DNA of 23,758 nt, taken from IMG/VR virus record IMGVR_UViG_3300028610_001178, positions 1 to 23,758 of that record; one strand, written 5' to 3'. Numbering within the stretch: position 1 is the stretch's first letter; each line of letters begins with the position of its first letter. Positions 8,628 through 15,621 of the stretch are shown here, one piece after another. The DNA is from a virus. The position numbers and the translations under genes are program-made. The notes beneath the pieces are model-generated. The model saw only the letters and a list, made by a program, of their open reading frames with translations, was not told where the DNA came from and ran no database searches.

Positions 8628-9629
8628 TTAAGCGTCGCGCAGATCGACCGATCGTTTCGCCAGGTAGGCGCGAAAAACCGGAGCGAGCTCCGCTGGCATA
8701 TCCTCCTTAATAAACTTGATCTCGTCAAGCGTTCGAGCGTTCGCGATCGCAGCCGCGAACATATCGAGCCGGGCCTGTTTTGATTGCGGCGCGAATTTGA
8801 TGCCGTCGGCGCCCGTGTGATCCGGAGCGGCCTCGTCCTTTCGGCGGTCGCTCGACTCCTGGCTCTCGAGAGATCGGCCCTCTAGCTCCTTTTGAGCTCG
8901 GGCGTTTAGTGGTTTATTGTCGAGGATATTGTGCATAATCCAGGACAAATAACTGTCGGGGACTTTGTCCCACGGGTCGCCCTTGTGTTTGCCGAGCGGG
9001 CAATGAGTCGCCAGGGACGTCCCCGAGGGCGCGTTCGTATCCCCGCCCCAATCGTTCGGACTCCTCGAGTACGTGGCGCTGGCCTCGTCCTGGAGCGCCT
9101 CGGGCGGCATATCCTCCAAGTCCTGAGAGTAGAGCTCGGAGAGGCCGCCGCAATTCAGGACGGCGTCGATCAGGCTCGACTTTTTGGCCATCTTAAAAGC
9201 CTTGTTTAGATCGCCCTGGTCGGTCTCGATTAGCCTGGCCCCGACGCCCTCGGATACGATCCGATCCTCGACGTCGAGGAGCTGACATTTCAGGATAACG
9301 CAATTCGCCCCGCCCTGGACGCGGTCGATTTGTTCGTCGATCGTCGGCCACCTGGAGCGGACGCCCAGGAGCCCGGCAATTTTCTCGGCGCCTGGTTTAA
9401 ACAGCGTCGGACACTTGCGGCCCTGGACGACGATCTCGCCGAAATCGGTGCCGGGGATTAGCTGTTTATTGATCTTAGTTATGAACGTCCGGCGGTTCGC
9501 GAATCGGCGATTAATGCCGGCGCGGAAATCCGCCGGCTCGAGGTCGTAGGCGTTGCGCGTTTCGATAATTTGGTTGTGCTCGTGGGATGATTCCAGGACG
9601 ACGAGCTCGGCCTGTTTCGGGTCTGGCAT
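8628..9629 (-). CDS. Annealing-protein-like DNA-binding protein with DUF3820-like insert
   Basis: Residues 35-175 resemble phage proteins that sit in recombination operons, with FKPGAEKIAGLLG (77-89), a strand pair VILKCQLL / RIVSEGVGARL, and GDLNKAFKMAKKSSLIDAVL (139-158). This build is like single-strand annealing proteins of the Rad52/Erf kind, but which family is uncertain. Residues 211-230 (PLGKHKG, then VPDSYLSW) match the short DUF3820/ExoX C-terminal motif 'GKHKG...VP.YL.W'. A helical end (282-326) is also usual in such proteins. The start ATG at 9629 has AGGAG nine bases upstream. It leads its operon, downstream of the repeat-bearing control region. Confidence 0.68.
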   Translation of the reverse strand: MPDPKQAELVVLESSHEHNQIIETRNAYDLEPADFRAGINRRFANRRTFITKINKQLIPGTDFGEIVVQGRKCPTLFKPGAEKIAGLLGVRSRWPTIDEQIDRVQGGANCVILKCQLLDVEDRIVSEGVGARLIETDQGDLNKAFKMAKKSSLIDAVLNCGGLSELYSQDLEDMPPEALQDEASATYSRSPNDWGGDTNAPSGTSLATHCPLGKHKGDPWDKVPDSYLSWIMHNILDNKPLNARAQKELEGRSLESQESSDRRKDEAAPDHTGADGIKFAPQSKQARLDMFAAAIANARTLDEIKFIKEDMPAELAPVFRAYLAKRSVDLRDA

Positions 9630-11653: not shown

Positions 11654-12271
11654 ATGAAAAACACTAACAGAGAATTATGGTTGAACCGAGTCGCAAAAGA
11701 GCTCGAGAAACTTTTTAAATCCGTCGGCGCTCCCGCGCTTCCTGCCTACCGCGTGACTTGTGGCTGGCCCTCGAGAAAAGCCCTCACTCGTAAAAATAAA
11801 GTGATCGGCCAATGTTTCGATAAATCTTGTAGCAAGGACAAAACGACCGAAATGATCGTTTCGATGTTTATCGATAACGAGGCGGACGCCGCTCAAATCC
11901 TGGCGCATGAAATGATCCACGCCAGCGTCGGAACTGCGGCCGGGCATGGTAAGCCTTTTCGTGACGTTGCGATCGCTATCGGCCTCACTGGTAAAATGAC
12001 CGCCACGGTCGCCGGCCCTGAGTTTACAAAATGGATCAAGCCGGTACTGAAAAAAATCGGTAAGTATCCCCACGCCACGGTCGACGCTGCGAGTGCCACT
12101 CGTAAACAGGGAACGCGAATGATTAAAGTTAGCTGTCCCGAGCATCCCGAGTTTAGCGTTCGCATGACTCGCACCTGGTTAGACGCTGACACGTTCGGCG
12201 CTCCTATCTGCCCGAACTGTCACTCGACAATGATCGAAGCCGTCGCCGGCGCAAACCGGAAAGCGGCTTAA
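11654..12271 (+). CDS. SprT-like zinc metalloprotease
   Basis: SprT-like proteins are HExxH metalloproteases; the eukaryotic relative Spartan cleaves proteins crosslinked to DNA. Here the catalytic motif HEMIH is at residues 85-89, and the third ligand His98 is in GHGKPF. A C-terminal zinc-ribbon-like part has Cys161, His164, Cys186 and Cys189 (CPEH ... CPNC). The length of 205 aa is normal for phage members. The ATG at 11654 has AGGA nine bases upstream. It is the first gene of the rightward unit and has its own terminator, so it is probably controlled directly by the nearby repressor. A role in protecting or remodelling phage DNA-protein complexes is inferred. Confidence 0.85.
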   Translation: MKNTNRELWLNRVAKELEKLFKSVGAPALPAYRVTCGWPSRKALTRKNKVIGQCFDKSCSKDKTTEMIVSMFIDNEADAAQILAHEMIHASVGTAAGHGKPFRDVAIAIGLTGKMTATVAGPEFTKWIKPVLKKIGKYPHATVDAASATRKQGTRMIKVSCPEHPEFSVRMTRTWLDADTFGAPICPNCHSTMIEAVAGANRKAA

Positions 12272-12278
12272 ACCTCGA

Positions 12279-12308
12279 GGGCGGCCGACCTGGCCGCCCG
12301 CCTTTTTT
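12279..12308 (+). terminator. Intrinsic terminator after the SprT gene
   Basis: GGGCGGCC-gacct-GGCCGCCC forms an 8-bp perfect stem, followed by GCC and six Ts. It sits eight bases after the SprT stop, so the downstream genes need read-through or their own promoter. None is obvious in the 16 bases left. Confidence 0.92.
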
Positions 12309-12324
12309 CATAACGGAGAAAATT

Positions 12325-12831
12325 ATGGATATGCACGATTTAGAAAAGAAGATTAATACCGTCCTGGTCGAGGCTCAAACTCTCGGCTATTCGTTTGTAG
12401 AGCTCGGAGCTCGGCGCGTCAGTATTTGCCCGGTCGGGAGCAAATCTTTTTCGCTCCAGTTTCGCGATCAGGGTTTCGACATTGCGAACACGATCCACGG
12501 CGGCGACGTCCCGCGCCTGAAATTCGACGCCGCGAAAATCGCGATCGTTGTTTTTCTGGACGGCTTTCGACTGGACGACGACGAGGATTATTTCGACGAG
12601 TTTATTAACCAGGCCGATCGCGAATGTTTTGTCGTCGAGGATTCGGCCACGCCGACCAGGCTCCGCATACAATACGATATGCCGGCGGCCGGCCCGACGA
12701 AAGCCTGGCGCCATCATGTGAGCTTTAACACGTACCGGAGCGAGGACGAGATCGAGCGCCGCACCAGGCACCGAGCCCGACGCTCCGACGAGCATTTGCA
12801 GACTACCCGCTATATCGCGAGGCTCTACTAA
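12325..12831 (+). CDS. Hypothetical 168-aa protein
   Basis: This protein is not recognised. The N-terminal helix (DMHDLEKKINTVLVEAQTLG) is followed by beta-like sequence, an acidic patch RLDDDEDYFDEFINQADREC (about residues 82-101), and a basic arginine-rich C-terminus (EIERRTRHRARRSDEHLQTT). There is no membrane segment or obvious metal site. The ATG at 12325 has GGAG nine bases upstream, and the stop overlaps the next start (TAATG). Codon use is like its neighbours. Confidence 0.75.
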   Translation: MDMHDLEKKINTVLVEAQTLGYSFVELGARRVSICPVGSKSFSLQFRDQGFDIANTIHGGDVPRLKFDAAKIAIVVFLDGFRLDDDEDYFDEFINQADRECFVVEDSATPTRLRIQYDMPAAGPTKAWRHHVSFNTYRSEDEIERRTRHRARRSDEHLQTTRYIARLY

Positions 12832-13184
12832 TGAACGCCGAGCTCGAAAAAGTCCTGGCTCGGATCGATGCCGATACGAAAGTGATCTCGAGCCGCGATC
12901 TCAATCCCCGACAGCGCCGGAAAGTCCGGTCGATCGTCCGCTGGTATCGAGAGCGAAACGCCTATAACGGCGTGACCTCGATCCGGTTCATTTTGACCGA
13001 CTATAACGGGACGACCTGGATCAGGCTCAAAACCCGGCGCTCGGACTGTGGCAAGTATTCGCCGAGGGCGCTCGTGTGCGAGGAGTACCTCCACGCCAGG
13101 ATCGGGCCGCGTGGTGGCGTCCGAGTTTATACCGCTCGCTCGGGTCTCACGAGCGAATTAACCCGCGTTCAGAAACGCCTTTAA
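12831..13184 (+). CDS. Hypothetical basic 117-aa protein
   Basis: This is a basic protein with arginine-rich stretches: NPRQRRKVRSIVRWYRERNA (about residues 25-44) and GPRGGVRVYTARSG near the end. One short segment, GTTWIRLKTRRSDC, suggests a beta hairpin. It is probably nucleic-acid binding by composition only. It starts at ATG 12831, sharing one base with the preceding stop. The family is unknown. Confidence 0.7.
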   Translation: MNAELEKVLARIDADTKVISSRDLNPRQRRKVRSIVRWYRERNAYNGVTSIRFILTDYNGTTWIRLKTRRSDCGKYSPRALVCEEYLHARIGPRGGVRVYTARSGLTSELTRVQKRL

Positions 13185-13196
13185 CAGGAGTAAATT

Positions 13197-13469
13197 ATGA
13201 ACCACGCAATACAACATTATTACAAAGCCGCCCGAGACTGGCAGCGCGAAGTCTATGCAAACGGCGGTGGCATGATTACCAGTTTTACCGATGGCACGGC
13301 GTCGCAGCTTTCGTATGCCAGCGCCCCTTATGGTGAACACGCTTTAAGTGCATTAGCCAGCGCAAAAAGCCAGATCGCTTTCCGCGCTAGACTTTCCGCA
13401 TCTGTTAAAGCGTACAAAAAGCGAAGCGCCGCCGCTAAACGAGGATGGAAAAACAGGAGAAAATTATGA
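13197..13469 (+). CDS. Hypothetical 90-aa protein
   Basis: A tyrosine/tryptophan-containing start (MNHAIQHYYKAARDWQREVY) leads to a glycine-rich middle (ANGGGMITSFTDG). A long basic helix SVKAYKKRSAAAKRGWKNRR ends the protein. CAGGAGTAAATT stands directly before the ATG at 13197, the same leader seen before the gene at 14673. The stop overlaps the next start (ATGA). It is not recognised as a known family. Confidence 0.72.
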   Translation: MNHAIQHYYKAARDWQREVYANGGGMITSFTDGTASQLSYASAPYGEHALSALASAKSQIAFRARLSASVKAYKKRSAAAKRGWKNRRKL

Positions 13470-13978
13470 AAGCTAAAATCTATCATTTCGATTCGACCGT
13501 CGAGGCTTACGAAAGCGCCCAAACCGACGAGACTATTAACGACGGCGACGTCCTGATTATCGAGCCCGAGAAAGTCGTCGGCCTGGTCGGCGACTTCCCG
13601 ATCGCCGTCACTGAATGGACGGGCGACCTCCACGACCTCGCCGCCGGCGACACGCTCGAGAGTTTGGGATTCTCGGACAAGTCGATCGCCCTGGCCAGGG
13701 ACGCCGCCAAAACGCTCGGCTATGATCTGGCCGTGCTCGAGGCCGAGCCCGTGCTCGAGCTGGTCTCGGTCGGAGCCGCCGACGCGTGTCTGACGAATAC
13801 GCTCCAGGCCAGGGACGCGGCCGTGGTCAAAGCCTGGGATTCTCTCGCCCGTTATAAATTTGAAATGTTCGGATATTGGGCGAGCTCCTGGGTCAAGTTT
13901 AACCAGGTACTCCCGAAATCGCACCGACAAGGGAACCCGTTTAAACGCGCTGTCGATCTGGCTCGGAGTATGAAATGA
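13466..13978 (+). CDS. Hypothetical 170-aa protein
   Basis: The sequence starts MKAKIYHFDSTVEAYESAQT and continues as strand/helix units: an acidic half (INDGDVLIIEPEKVVGLVGD), a helical stretch with SLGFSDKSIALARDAAKTLG, and a helical end KAWDSLARYKFEMFGYWASS. No named domain is identified. The start at 13466 was chosen because AGGAG lies eight bases upstream and it overlaps the preceding stop; an ATG at 13445 in the same frame lacks both features. Confidence 0.74.
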   Translation: MKAKIYHFDSTVEAYESAQTDETINDGDVLIIEPEKVVGLVGDFPIAVTEWTGDLHDLAAGDTLESLGFSDKSIALARDAAKTLGYDLAVLEAEPVLELVSVGAADACLTNTLQARDAAVVKAWDSLARYKFEMFGYWASSWVKFNQVLPKSHRQGNPFKRAVDLARSMK

Positions 13979-14241
13979 AAAAGGCCGACGATACGACCTG
14001 GTTCGACGAGGTAAAGGACGACGCCGAGCGCCAGCATAACCAGCGAGCGACCGACTCGGAGCTCGCGGCCACGATCGCAGCGGTCGAGCCTGGGCTCCGC
14101 CGAGCTCAATTTCGGAGAGCGATTAAAAAACTCGAGGGATATTTCGAGACGGCCCTGGACTCTACTGGCCCGCAAAAGGCTCGCCAGGTACTCGAGAGAA
14201 TCCACCAGATAACGGGCGAAAGGAGGCGCGGATCAAAATAA
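13975..14241 (+). CDS. Hypothetical helical 88-aa protein
   Basis: A charged, largely helical protein: WFDEVKDDAERQHNQRATDS, then LRRAQFRRAIKKLEGYFETA and ARQVLERIHQITGERRR. The pattern is that of a small helical bundle or coiled coil. It starts at ATG 13975, overlapping the preceding stop in ATGA. It is the last gene before the terminator at 14275-14310. Confidence 0.7.
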   Translation: MKKADDTTWFDEVKDDAERQHNQRATDSELAATIAAVEPGLRRAQFRRAIKKLEGYFETALDSTGPQKARQVLERIHQITGERRRGSK

Positions 14242-14274
14242 TTTGACGGGAGTTTTAAGAGGGTGTAAAAAGGT

Positions 14275-14310
14275 AAGCCCCGCGAGAGTGATCTCGACGG
14301 GGCTTTTTTT
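14275..14310 (+). terminator. Intrinsic terminator after the five-gene unit
   Basis: AAGCCCCG ... CGGGGCTT pairs as an 8-bp outer stem, then CGAGA-GTGA-TCTCG forms a 5-bp inner stem with a GNRA-type loop, and seven Ts follow. It is one of the strongest terminators in the window. Confidence 0.94.
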
Positions 14311-14314
14311 CGGT

Positions 14315-14430
14315 GTTGATGCTTTGCAGGCTGACTCCGAAGTCGACAAAATACCAGACTCCGGCCCTCCCTGCAAACACTTTTCACCGACTCCGACGTG
14401 AGCGGCTAACGCGAGCGCGTCGGCTGTTTT
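14315..14430 (+). ncRNA. Candidate structured RNA, 116 bases, in a non-coding stretch
   Basis: No gene is supported between the terminator and 14673. Inverted repeats do stand out. TTTGCAGG (14323-14330) pairs perfectly with CCTGCAAA (14370-14377), enclosing a small GACT-CCGA-AGTC hairpin. CCGACGTG (14393-14400) pairs with CGCGTCGG (14416-14423), one T-G pair, around an inner GCG-gctaa-CGC, and is followed by CTGTTTT, which is terminator-like. GACTCCG occurs three times (14333, 14357, 14389). A small RNA is one reading; a replication or regulatory site is another. Confidence 0.32.
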
Positions 14431-14460
14431 ATCTATACTCGGGGATTCGGATAATAGATA
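14430..14460 (+). promoter_or_regulatory. Inverted repeat TATCTAT / ATAGATA with -10-like box
   Basis: TATCTAT (14430-14436) and ATAGATA (14454-14460) are perfect inverted copies with 17 bases between them. GATAAT (14450-14455) is five of six matches to a -10 box but no good -35 box lies 17 bases upstream. It may control the three-gene unit at 14673-15621. Confidence 0.35.
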
Positions 14461-14540
14461 CACGAGGCAAGCCTGGAACCGTGCCGATGAGCGTCCAGGG
14501 CCGACCATAAAACGCGACGAGTCTTAATCGTTTTTTAGGT

Positions 14541-14580
14541 GAGGCGTCCGAGGAGTCTCGATCTATATCGGGACGGCCTC
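14541..14580 (+). other. Possible three-way-junction RNA fold
   Basis: GAGGCGTCC (14541-14549) can pair with GGAC-g-GCCTC (14571-14580) as nine pairs with one bulge. Inside it lie two short hairpins, GAG-gagt-CTC and GAT-ctat-ATC. It lies in the leader about 95 bases before the gene at 14673, after the TTTTTT at 14531-14536. This is seen by eye only and may be chance. Confidence 0.25.
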
Positions 14581-14672
14581 GGGCTGCCTCTCTTTCCGCT
14601 CGGAATCTTAGATAAAAAAAAAGATTTTCTTTTAACTGTTGCCGTTACCGTGCATAAAACCAGGAGTAAATT

Positions 14673-14999
14673 ATGGCCGCGAGTGCCTGTAAAGATTGCC
14701 ACGCCCCGATCGATTTCATTCAATTAGATAATGGACGCTGGAAGCCTGTCCGACCAGGGACTCGGGAATTCCATCGATGTCAGCTCGAGCAAACTTGCGC
14801 CGACTGTACTCATAAATTCGAGGGAGCTCCCTGGATGACTCAATGCCCGACCTGTTTTAAAAATAGCCGGCCAGGTCGTGAGGGATTCCGGCCTCGAGAG
14901 ACCGGCAATTTCGGAGAGCCGACCAGGCAACCAAAACGGGAAGCCGTCCGGATGCCCGCCGGCCACGACGACGACAATTTCGACGATATTCCGTTCTAA
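14673..14999 (+). CDS. Zinc-finger protein with SSB-type C-terminal tip
   Basis: Residues 1-65 carry zinc-type pairs: CKDC (6-9), His34 and Cys36, CADC (42-45) and CPTC (58-61). Then comes a basic, disordered-looking linker rich in Gly, Pro and Arg (62-98). The last ten residues are DDDNFDDIPF. This closely matches the acidic tip of bacterial SSB (DDDIPF in E. coli), which docks proteins such as RecQ, PriA, RecO, ExoI and chi. The protein has no visible OB fold. CCAGGAG precedes the ATG at 14673, and the stop overlaps the next start (TAATG). A role in recruiting host replication or repair proteins is inferred. Confidence 0.72.
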   Translation: MAASACKDCHAPIDFIQLDNGRWKPVRPGTREFHRCQLEQTCADCTHKFEGAPWMTQCPTCFKNSRPGREGFRPRETGNFGEPTRQPKREAVRMPAGHDDDNFDDIPF

Positions 15000-15220
15000 T
15001 GAATATCAGAGATCAGGCGCCGGCCTGGACAATTCCGGAATTAATGAAGCATTGGAAAATGAGCCGCAACACTCTCGGGAAATTAATCGCGAGCGGCTCG
15101 CTCAAATATATGAATCTGAGCTGGCAACAGCGACGGAAAAAAGGCGAGAAACCGCCGAGGAAATATATCCGAGTCCGCGACTCCGACCGGCTGCATTTTG
15201 AAAATACCCGCTTACGGTGA
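14999..15220 (+). CDS. Small helix-turn-helix protein, 73 aa
   Basis: APAWTIPELMKHWKMSRNTL (about residues 7-26) is a helix-turn-helix of the excisionase/MerR kind, with the recognition helix SRNTLGKLIASGSLK. A basic stretch LSWQQRRKKGEKPPRKYIRV and a short wing-like end follow. It is probably a DNA-binding regulator or excisionase-like factor. It starts at ATG 14999, sharing a base with the preceding stop, and overlaps the next gene in GTGA. Confidence 0.72.
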   Translation: MNIRDQAPAWTIPELMKHWKMSRNTLGKLIASGSLKYMNLSWQQRRKKGEKPPRKYIRVRDSDRLHFENTRLR

Positions 15221-15621
15221 ACAAGGCCGATCGAGACGCTCTAATTAAGCCCAGGCGCGACGATCTTTTTCCTGATCCTGACATAGATCAGGCACCATTC
15301 GAGGAGCCTGGCGATACCGATCCGATCGACTCTCGCCTATTCGGAGCCAGTGCTCCCGATCCCGATCCGATTCCGTTCAATCATGCAAAGCTCGCGATCA
15401 ACCTGGACGACTGTCGCGAGCTCGAGAGCTGGATTTATAAACAGGATTTCCCGATCCATCGACAGGTCACGGCCGCGCACCTGGTCACGGCCTTATCGGG
15501 AATGATACGAGACGATTTTCGCTGGCTCTGCTATGCAATGAACCAGGCGAATCGAGCGCCGGCGCCGTCAGTAATGCACCAGGCGCTCGTCGCCAGGGAC
15601 GTCGCGATCCTACGCGATTAG
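15217..15621 (+). CDS. Hypothetical 134-aa protein
   Basis: This protein is not recognised. The first third is acidic and proline-rich (LFPDPDIDQAPFEEPGDTDP). The rest is helical (NLDDCRELESWIYKQDFPIH, then ALSGMIRDDFRWLCYAMNQA), with conserved-looking aromatics. The start is GTG at 15217, overlapping the helix-turn-helix stop in GTGA. The gene ends against the leftward 92-aa gene: the two stop codons overlap on opposite strands (15618-15621), so transcription is convergent there. Confidence 0.7.
   Translation: MNKADRDALIKPRRDDLFPDPDIDQAPFEEPGDTDPIDSRLFGASAPDPDPIPFNHAKLAINLDDCRELESWIYKQDFPIHRQVTAAHLVTALSGMIRDDFRWLCYAMNQANRAPAPSVMHQALVARDVAILRD

Follow-up and report, generated by a model that had tools for sequence, protein, structure and literature searches.

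A phage protein with two predicted zinc sites and an SSB-like C-terminal tip as a candidate mimic of the SSB tail

The stretch of DNA analysed here (the window) is a 23,758-base IMG/VR virus record of tailed-phage type with a terminase. It encodes a small protein in which a conserved part with two predicted zinc sites is joined, through a drifting linker, to a conserved C-terminal tip like that of bacterial SSB, and no OB-fold SSB was found in 15 contigs of its family. On balance, we favor the reading that this protein is a phage mimic of the SSB tail, that is, a zinc module displaying the SSB-Ct docking peptide to host SSB-interacting proteins; the virus would probably use the tip to hold or divert host repair and replication enzymes. 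The nearest precedents are the SSB of phage HK620, whose variant NDYPPF tail recruits Sak4 (PMC5928155), and the engineered PriB-SSBc chimera (PMC8509808). The former is likewise a phage protein whose variant SSB tip serves for docking, but it is a true SSB (PMC5928155). The latter also carries an SSB tail on a different scaffold, but it is a laboratory construct, and PriB itself has an OB fold (PMC8509808).

Anatomy of the zinc/tip protein

The gene lies immediately downstream of an AGGAG ribosome site and its predicted product is MAASACKDCHAPIDFIQLDNGRWKPVRPGTREFHRCQLEQTCADCTHKFEGAPWMTQCPTCFKNSRPGREGFRPRETGNFGEPTRQPKREAVRMPAGHDDDNFDDIPF. Its parts, and the two genes that follow it, are:

14673–14999, + strand: coding sequence of the zinc/SSB-tail protein, ATG start, 108 aa
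14688–14780, + strand: predicted zinc site 1, C6-x2-C9 ... H34-R35-C36, with 4/4 ligand candidates invariant in 16 distinct members
14796–14855, + strand: predicted zinc site 2, C42-x2-C45 ... C58-x2-C61, invariant in 16 members
14862–14972, + strand: disordered, non-conserved linker (residues 64–100), with pLDDT mostly below 50 and low identity
14973–14996, + strand: SSB-Ct-like tip DNFDDIPF (residues 101–108), defined by sequence, conservation and codon variation
14999–15220, + strand: HTH_17-like gene, 73 aa, overlapping the zinc/tip stop codon (TAATG)
15217–15621, + strand: conserved partner gene, 134 aa, adjoining the zinc/tip gene in sufficiently long family contigs

A preliminary description of this DNA had pointed to a seven-cysteine zinc region. 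The seven cysteines (C6, C9, C36, C42, C45, C58 and C61) are indeed present and invariant in 16 members, but that description had missed His34, an eighth invariant ligand candidate with which two four-ligand sites can be predicted. Metal binding at both sites is likely, to judge from these invariant residues. Between the two CxxC pairs of zinc site 2 stands a GA(P/S/N)WM segment. Its small domain, with two predicted zinc sites built on CxxC pairs, resembles that of double zinc ribbon proteins (Pfam DZR, zf_Tbcl and similar), although matches to these were sub-threshold at most and define no common sequence family. Sequence and fold searches against Pfam, PHROGs, NCBIfam and PDB gave no significant match for the zinc part, and no curated zinc-ribbon family in Pfam, NCBIfam or PDB was matched more than weakly. 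DUF6083 weakly matched three members (best E 8e-4), and a piece of the structural model overlaid a viral zinc-ribbon model at 0.7 Å over 29 columns, but with an E of 0.2.

AF2 prediction on the family alignment yielded an ordered zinc part, with block pLDDT of 81–88 over residues 11–60. The linker, described earlier as disordered-looking, had pLDDT below 50 over residues 74–84 and 86–99 and is thus predicted to be disordered. The core model contained a few short strands and lacked an OB barrel, and the fold search carried out with it returned no OB-fold match. Moreover, PF00436 matched neither the 108-aa protein nor anything in 15 family contigs, four of them 40–45 kb long, in agreement with the original observation that the tip is not attached to an OB fold. 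With no OB fold detected, the protein does not belong to the SSB family (PF00436). Like bacterial SSB, it has a non-conserved disordered linker and an acidic tip ending in Pro-Phe; unlike bacterial SSB, its family has two predicted zinc sites, no OB fold and a variable residue (I, V, L, D, N or P) before the Pro.

Conservation of the tip and drift of the linker

A direct search returned three relatives at 68–69% identity, two of them identical proteins, and all with the tip. Scanning with a DNA pattern of zinc site 2 that left out the tip gave further members, and a pattern of zinc site 1 plus the HRC motif, which used neither zinc site 2 nor the tip, gave five more. The family totals 16 distinct proteins including that of the window, all from uncultured phage contigs and most of them found by zinc-domain patterns without the tip; outside the closest group, identity to the window protein drops to 38–50%. 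A tip-plus-zinc DNA pattern, over-strict on codons, had no match in reverse orientation. L007, L018, L020–L022 and most of L035–L062 were rejected as chance sequence matches. Searches by tblastn with four members or queries detected no relative in cultured phages, where the best matches, short ones to streptococcal helicase-loader zinc fingers (E 0.1), were not accepted; 84,980 species genomes held no real relative and three chance matches.

All 16 distinct members share the ligand candidates C6, C9, H34, C36, C42, C45, C58 and C61 without exception, and W23, P25, P28, F49, G51, A52, W54 and M55 are likewise invariant. The preliminary description had likened the end of the window protein, DDDNFDDIPF, to that of SSB, and this likeness is confirmed: the last eight residues read DNFDDIPF, versus DFDDDIPF in E. 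coli SSB (PMC10164576). An acidic stretch and a Pro-Phe end close every one of the 16 proteins, with an invariant final Phe, Pro and Asp (residue 105 of the window protein, P0001). By member count the tips are DDIPF (3), DDVPF (3), DDVPPF (2) and DDDPF (2), with DDLPF, NDIPF, NDVPF, ADVPF, DDPPF and DDNPF in one member each. The C-terminal Phe, penultimate Pro and acidic residues of an SSB-Ct docking peptide are therefore conserved. In E. coli SSB, loss of the last Phe or a Pro-to-Ser change abolishes or weakens partner binding, and deletion of the tip or of the last Phe is lethal (PMC10164576). Replacement of the I of SSB by D, N or P in several members (DDDPF, DDNPF, DDPPF) counts against mimicry, as it might weaken docking. 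DDVPPF and DDPPF are plausible docking ends, given that the NDYPPF tail recruits Sak4 (PMC5928155).

The linker behaves quite differently from the parts that flank it. Its length ahead of the last eight residues varies from 23 to 49 aa. Mean pairwise identity among the first 11 members was 0.53 for the core, 0.20 for the linker and 0.77 for the last five residues, and mean column entropy in a larger alignment was 1.25, 1.98 and 0.76 for core, linker and tip, respectively. In E. coli SSB, a linker of about 11–20 residues is enough and its sequence is immaterial (PMC10164576). By analogy, a conserved tip behind a drifting disordered linker is the architecture of an SSB tail. Loss of the tip from homologues had been named at the outset as the outcome that would speak against mimicry; all 16 distinct proteins keep it while their linkers have diverged. 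The SSB-mimic interpretation of the preliminary description is thus partly supported, in that the comparison of homologues did not overturn its central idea, a zinc scaffold carrying a mimic of the SSB-Ct.

Phage setting and possible roles of the tip

The long structural genes of the window are on the − strand; in two larger relatives the corresponding genes encode portal, tape-measure and tail proteins. The zinc/tip gene is one of the last in a run of small + strand genes (11654–15621). This region also includes a gene for an SprT-like metalloprotease (11654–12271, + strand), 88–97% identical in the closest relatives only, and in one relative the same small-gene cluster has a PAPS-reductase-domain protein (L029:3423–4319, − strand). 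On the 5' side of the zinc/tip gene, a non-coding stretch (14394–14600, + strand) is conserved in L001, L003, L040 and L050/L056, with an apparent intrinsic terminator ahead of it at about 14277–14310. This stretch folds well (z −2.9), includes a hairpin, GTCTCGATCTATATCGGGAC / GTCTTGGCTTAATGCCAGGAC, with paired changes, had no match in Rfam, and is possibly a structured leader or small RNA. On the 3' side, the 73-aa HTH_17-like gene separates the zinc/tip gene from the 134-aa gene in the window only, and is absent from the compared relatives.

The larger ORFs of the 43 and 45.5 kb relatives matched structural proteins and a family of Holliday junction resolvases (DUF1064 in Pfam), whereas a Pfam scan at E 1e-5 gave no match to a polymerase, a helicase or a primase; one gene was named 'DnaT_2, putative DnaT-like ssDNA binding'. 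As neither SSB nor polymerase, helicase or primase was found in records that may be incomplete, these phages likely need host replication proteins; the same possible incompleteness of the family contigs makes the absence of an SSB or polymerase gene provisional.

In the mechanism that we favor, the N-terminal part would be a compact module with its two zinc sites, from which a flexible linker would extend to a working SSB-Ct docking peptide. The free C-terminal Phe of this peptide, the preceding Pro and the acidic residues would fit into the pocket with which host SSB-interacting proteins (such as PriA, RecO, RecQ, RecG, ExoI or the chi subunit of the polymerase) bind the SSB-Ct. Phage DNA, or a partner protein of the phage, would be where the zinc module anchors the tail, and the most likely purpose would be to bring in host replication or restart proteins for a phage that lacks a replisome. 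We prefer recruitment over blocking in view of the strong conservation of the zinc core and the seeming lack of replication enzymes in these phages. A broader version, to which we hold only tentatively, makes the protein an OB-less analogue of SSB: the zinc module would bind ssDNA or phage DNA and display a portable tip, of a kind that phages attach to many unrelated proteins, thereby steering the host SSB-partner network.

It is also conceivable, though somewhat doubtful, that the tip recruits a partner encoded by the phage itself, as the HK620 SSB does with Sak4 (PMC5928155). The 134-aa gene next door in long-enough contigs would be one such partner. Another would be the product of a 333-aa gene (8628–9629, − strand) that, together with a 238-aa gene (− strand), is common to most longer family contigs; Holliday junction resolvase family matches in both large relatives fit as well. 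The 333-aa protein matches phrog_10048 and combines a KAxKMAKKSxxIDAVLNxGGLSEVFTQDxED motif with an ExoX-like C-terminal piece, and is a candidate recombination protein. A distant relative in Geobacillus virus E2 is encoded between Gp157 and the replication genes. This interval is the usual site of recombination genes, and the position is at most suggestive of such a role. That the 333-aa protein is a Rad52-like annealase was suggested by a sequence pattern alone and found no support in profile and fold searches, so that it stays a candidate. Against a phage-encoded partner, structural searches identified neither the 333-aa nor the 134-aa protein (low-confidence model, no match).

Two further readings appear unlikely to us, and about equally so. 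According to one, the double zinc module is itself what coats or marks ssDNA, with the tail as a hub, so that the protein replaces SSB without an OB fold. This would suit family contigs in which no OB-fold SSB was found, and many viral DDIPF-ending proteins among the matches listed are annotated as ssDNA-binding. The net charge of the core, 0 to +5 across the family, could be taken in its favor, but in the window protein it is weakly basic (+1), the zinc part is small (63 residues) and fold searches gave no match to an ssDNA binder. According to the other, the protein is an inhibitor used in host takeover, its free tails filling the SSB-Ct pockets of host nucleases or helicases (ExoI, RecQ, RecO and others) and keeping these enzymes away from phage DNA. 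A free mimic would contend for the same pockets, and the gene ends a run of small + strand genes of no assigned function, separate from the 238- and 333-aa genes of the − strand; however, outcompeting abundant tetrameric SSB at the peptide level requires high expression, and conservation of the zinc core speaks for a tethering role. The confidence we give to these several readings overlaps in part, since binding to ssDNA or to a partner from the phage would be compatible with a tethered mimic.

The tip peptide against chance, and its occurrence across viruses

Among distinct ORFs of at least 40 codons in the DNA sampled for this count, 21 of 4314 ended in PF and 12 of 4314 in [DEN][DEN].PF, all 12 being members of the zinc/tip family. 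In viral_contigs, a DDIPF-stop pattern, which also demanded an ATG five codons downstream, had at least 120 matches, versus 1 for the permuted DIDPF-stop of the same composition. Both counts argue that the tip is not due to chance. Moreover, its codons differ synonymously between members (for example GAC GAT ATT CCG TTC; GAC GAC TTG CCG TTT; GAC GAC GTC CCC TTC), and it is kept with a 14–26-base overlap by the next gene as well as with hardly any, so that, as far as the sequences tell, selection acts on the peptide. It is thus very improbable that the DDIPF end is a by-product without a docking role, for instance of an overlapping start: the start of the 134-aa gene does often overlap the tip codons in relatives, and the next gene begins 14–26 bases before the end of the tip gene in roughly nine or ten members, but in the window, L001, L003, L011 and L016 the tip is present although the overlap there is 4 bases or less, the tip codons vary, and DDIPF-stop is more than 100 times commoner than the permuted motif, all of which disfavors such an origin.

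The 120 sampled DDIPF-ending viral ORFs (L063–L182) fell into about 42 blastp families. PF00436 was matched by 27 of the 84 representatives among the matches listed, where the others included helicases, a clamp loader, Sak4, a DnaB-like helicase, a polymerase processivity factor, a topoisomerase zinc ribbon and DUF669, and where the named functions were mostly in DNA metabolism. The DDIPF tip is thus, by these assignments, widespread in phages on proteins other than classical SSBs. Individual non-SSB examples among the matches listed are the SF2 helicases L115 and L179, the clamp-loader-like L085, the Sak4-like ATPase L087 and the zinc ribbon L144; a family of small 'MAYE..' proteins annotated as ssDNA-binding has 16 members there with L063.

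No description of SSB-tail mimicry in phage proteins was found in the literature covered, a scope outside which most subscription journals fall. Among the peptides that organize genome maintenance in bacteria, the SSB-Ct is the principal hub. If the favored reading is true, a natural SSB-Ct peptide on a zinc scaffold would mean that phages enter the SSB hub by mimicry, and would also provide a tool and test system consisting of one peptide, known pockets and known point mutations that kill binding. The wider DDIPF count suggests that mimicry of the SSB tail is common in phage DNA-metabolism proteins and has gone largely unremarked.
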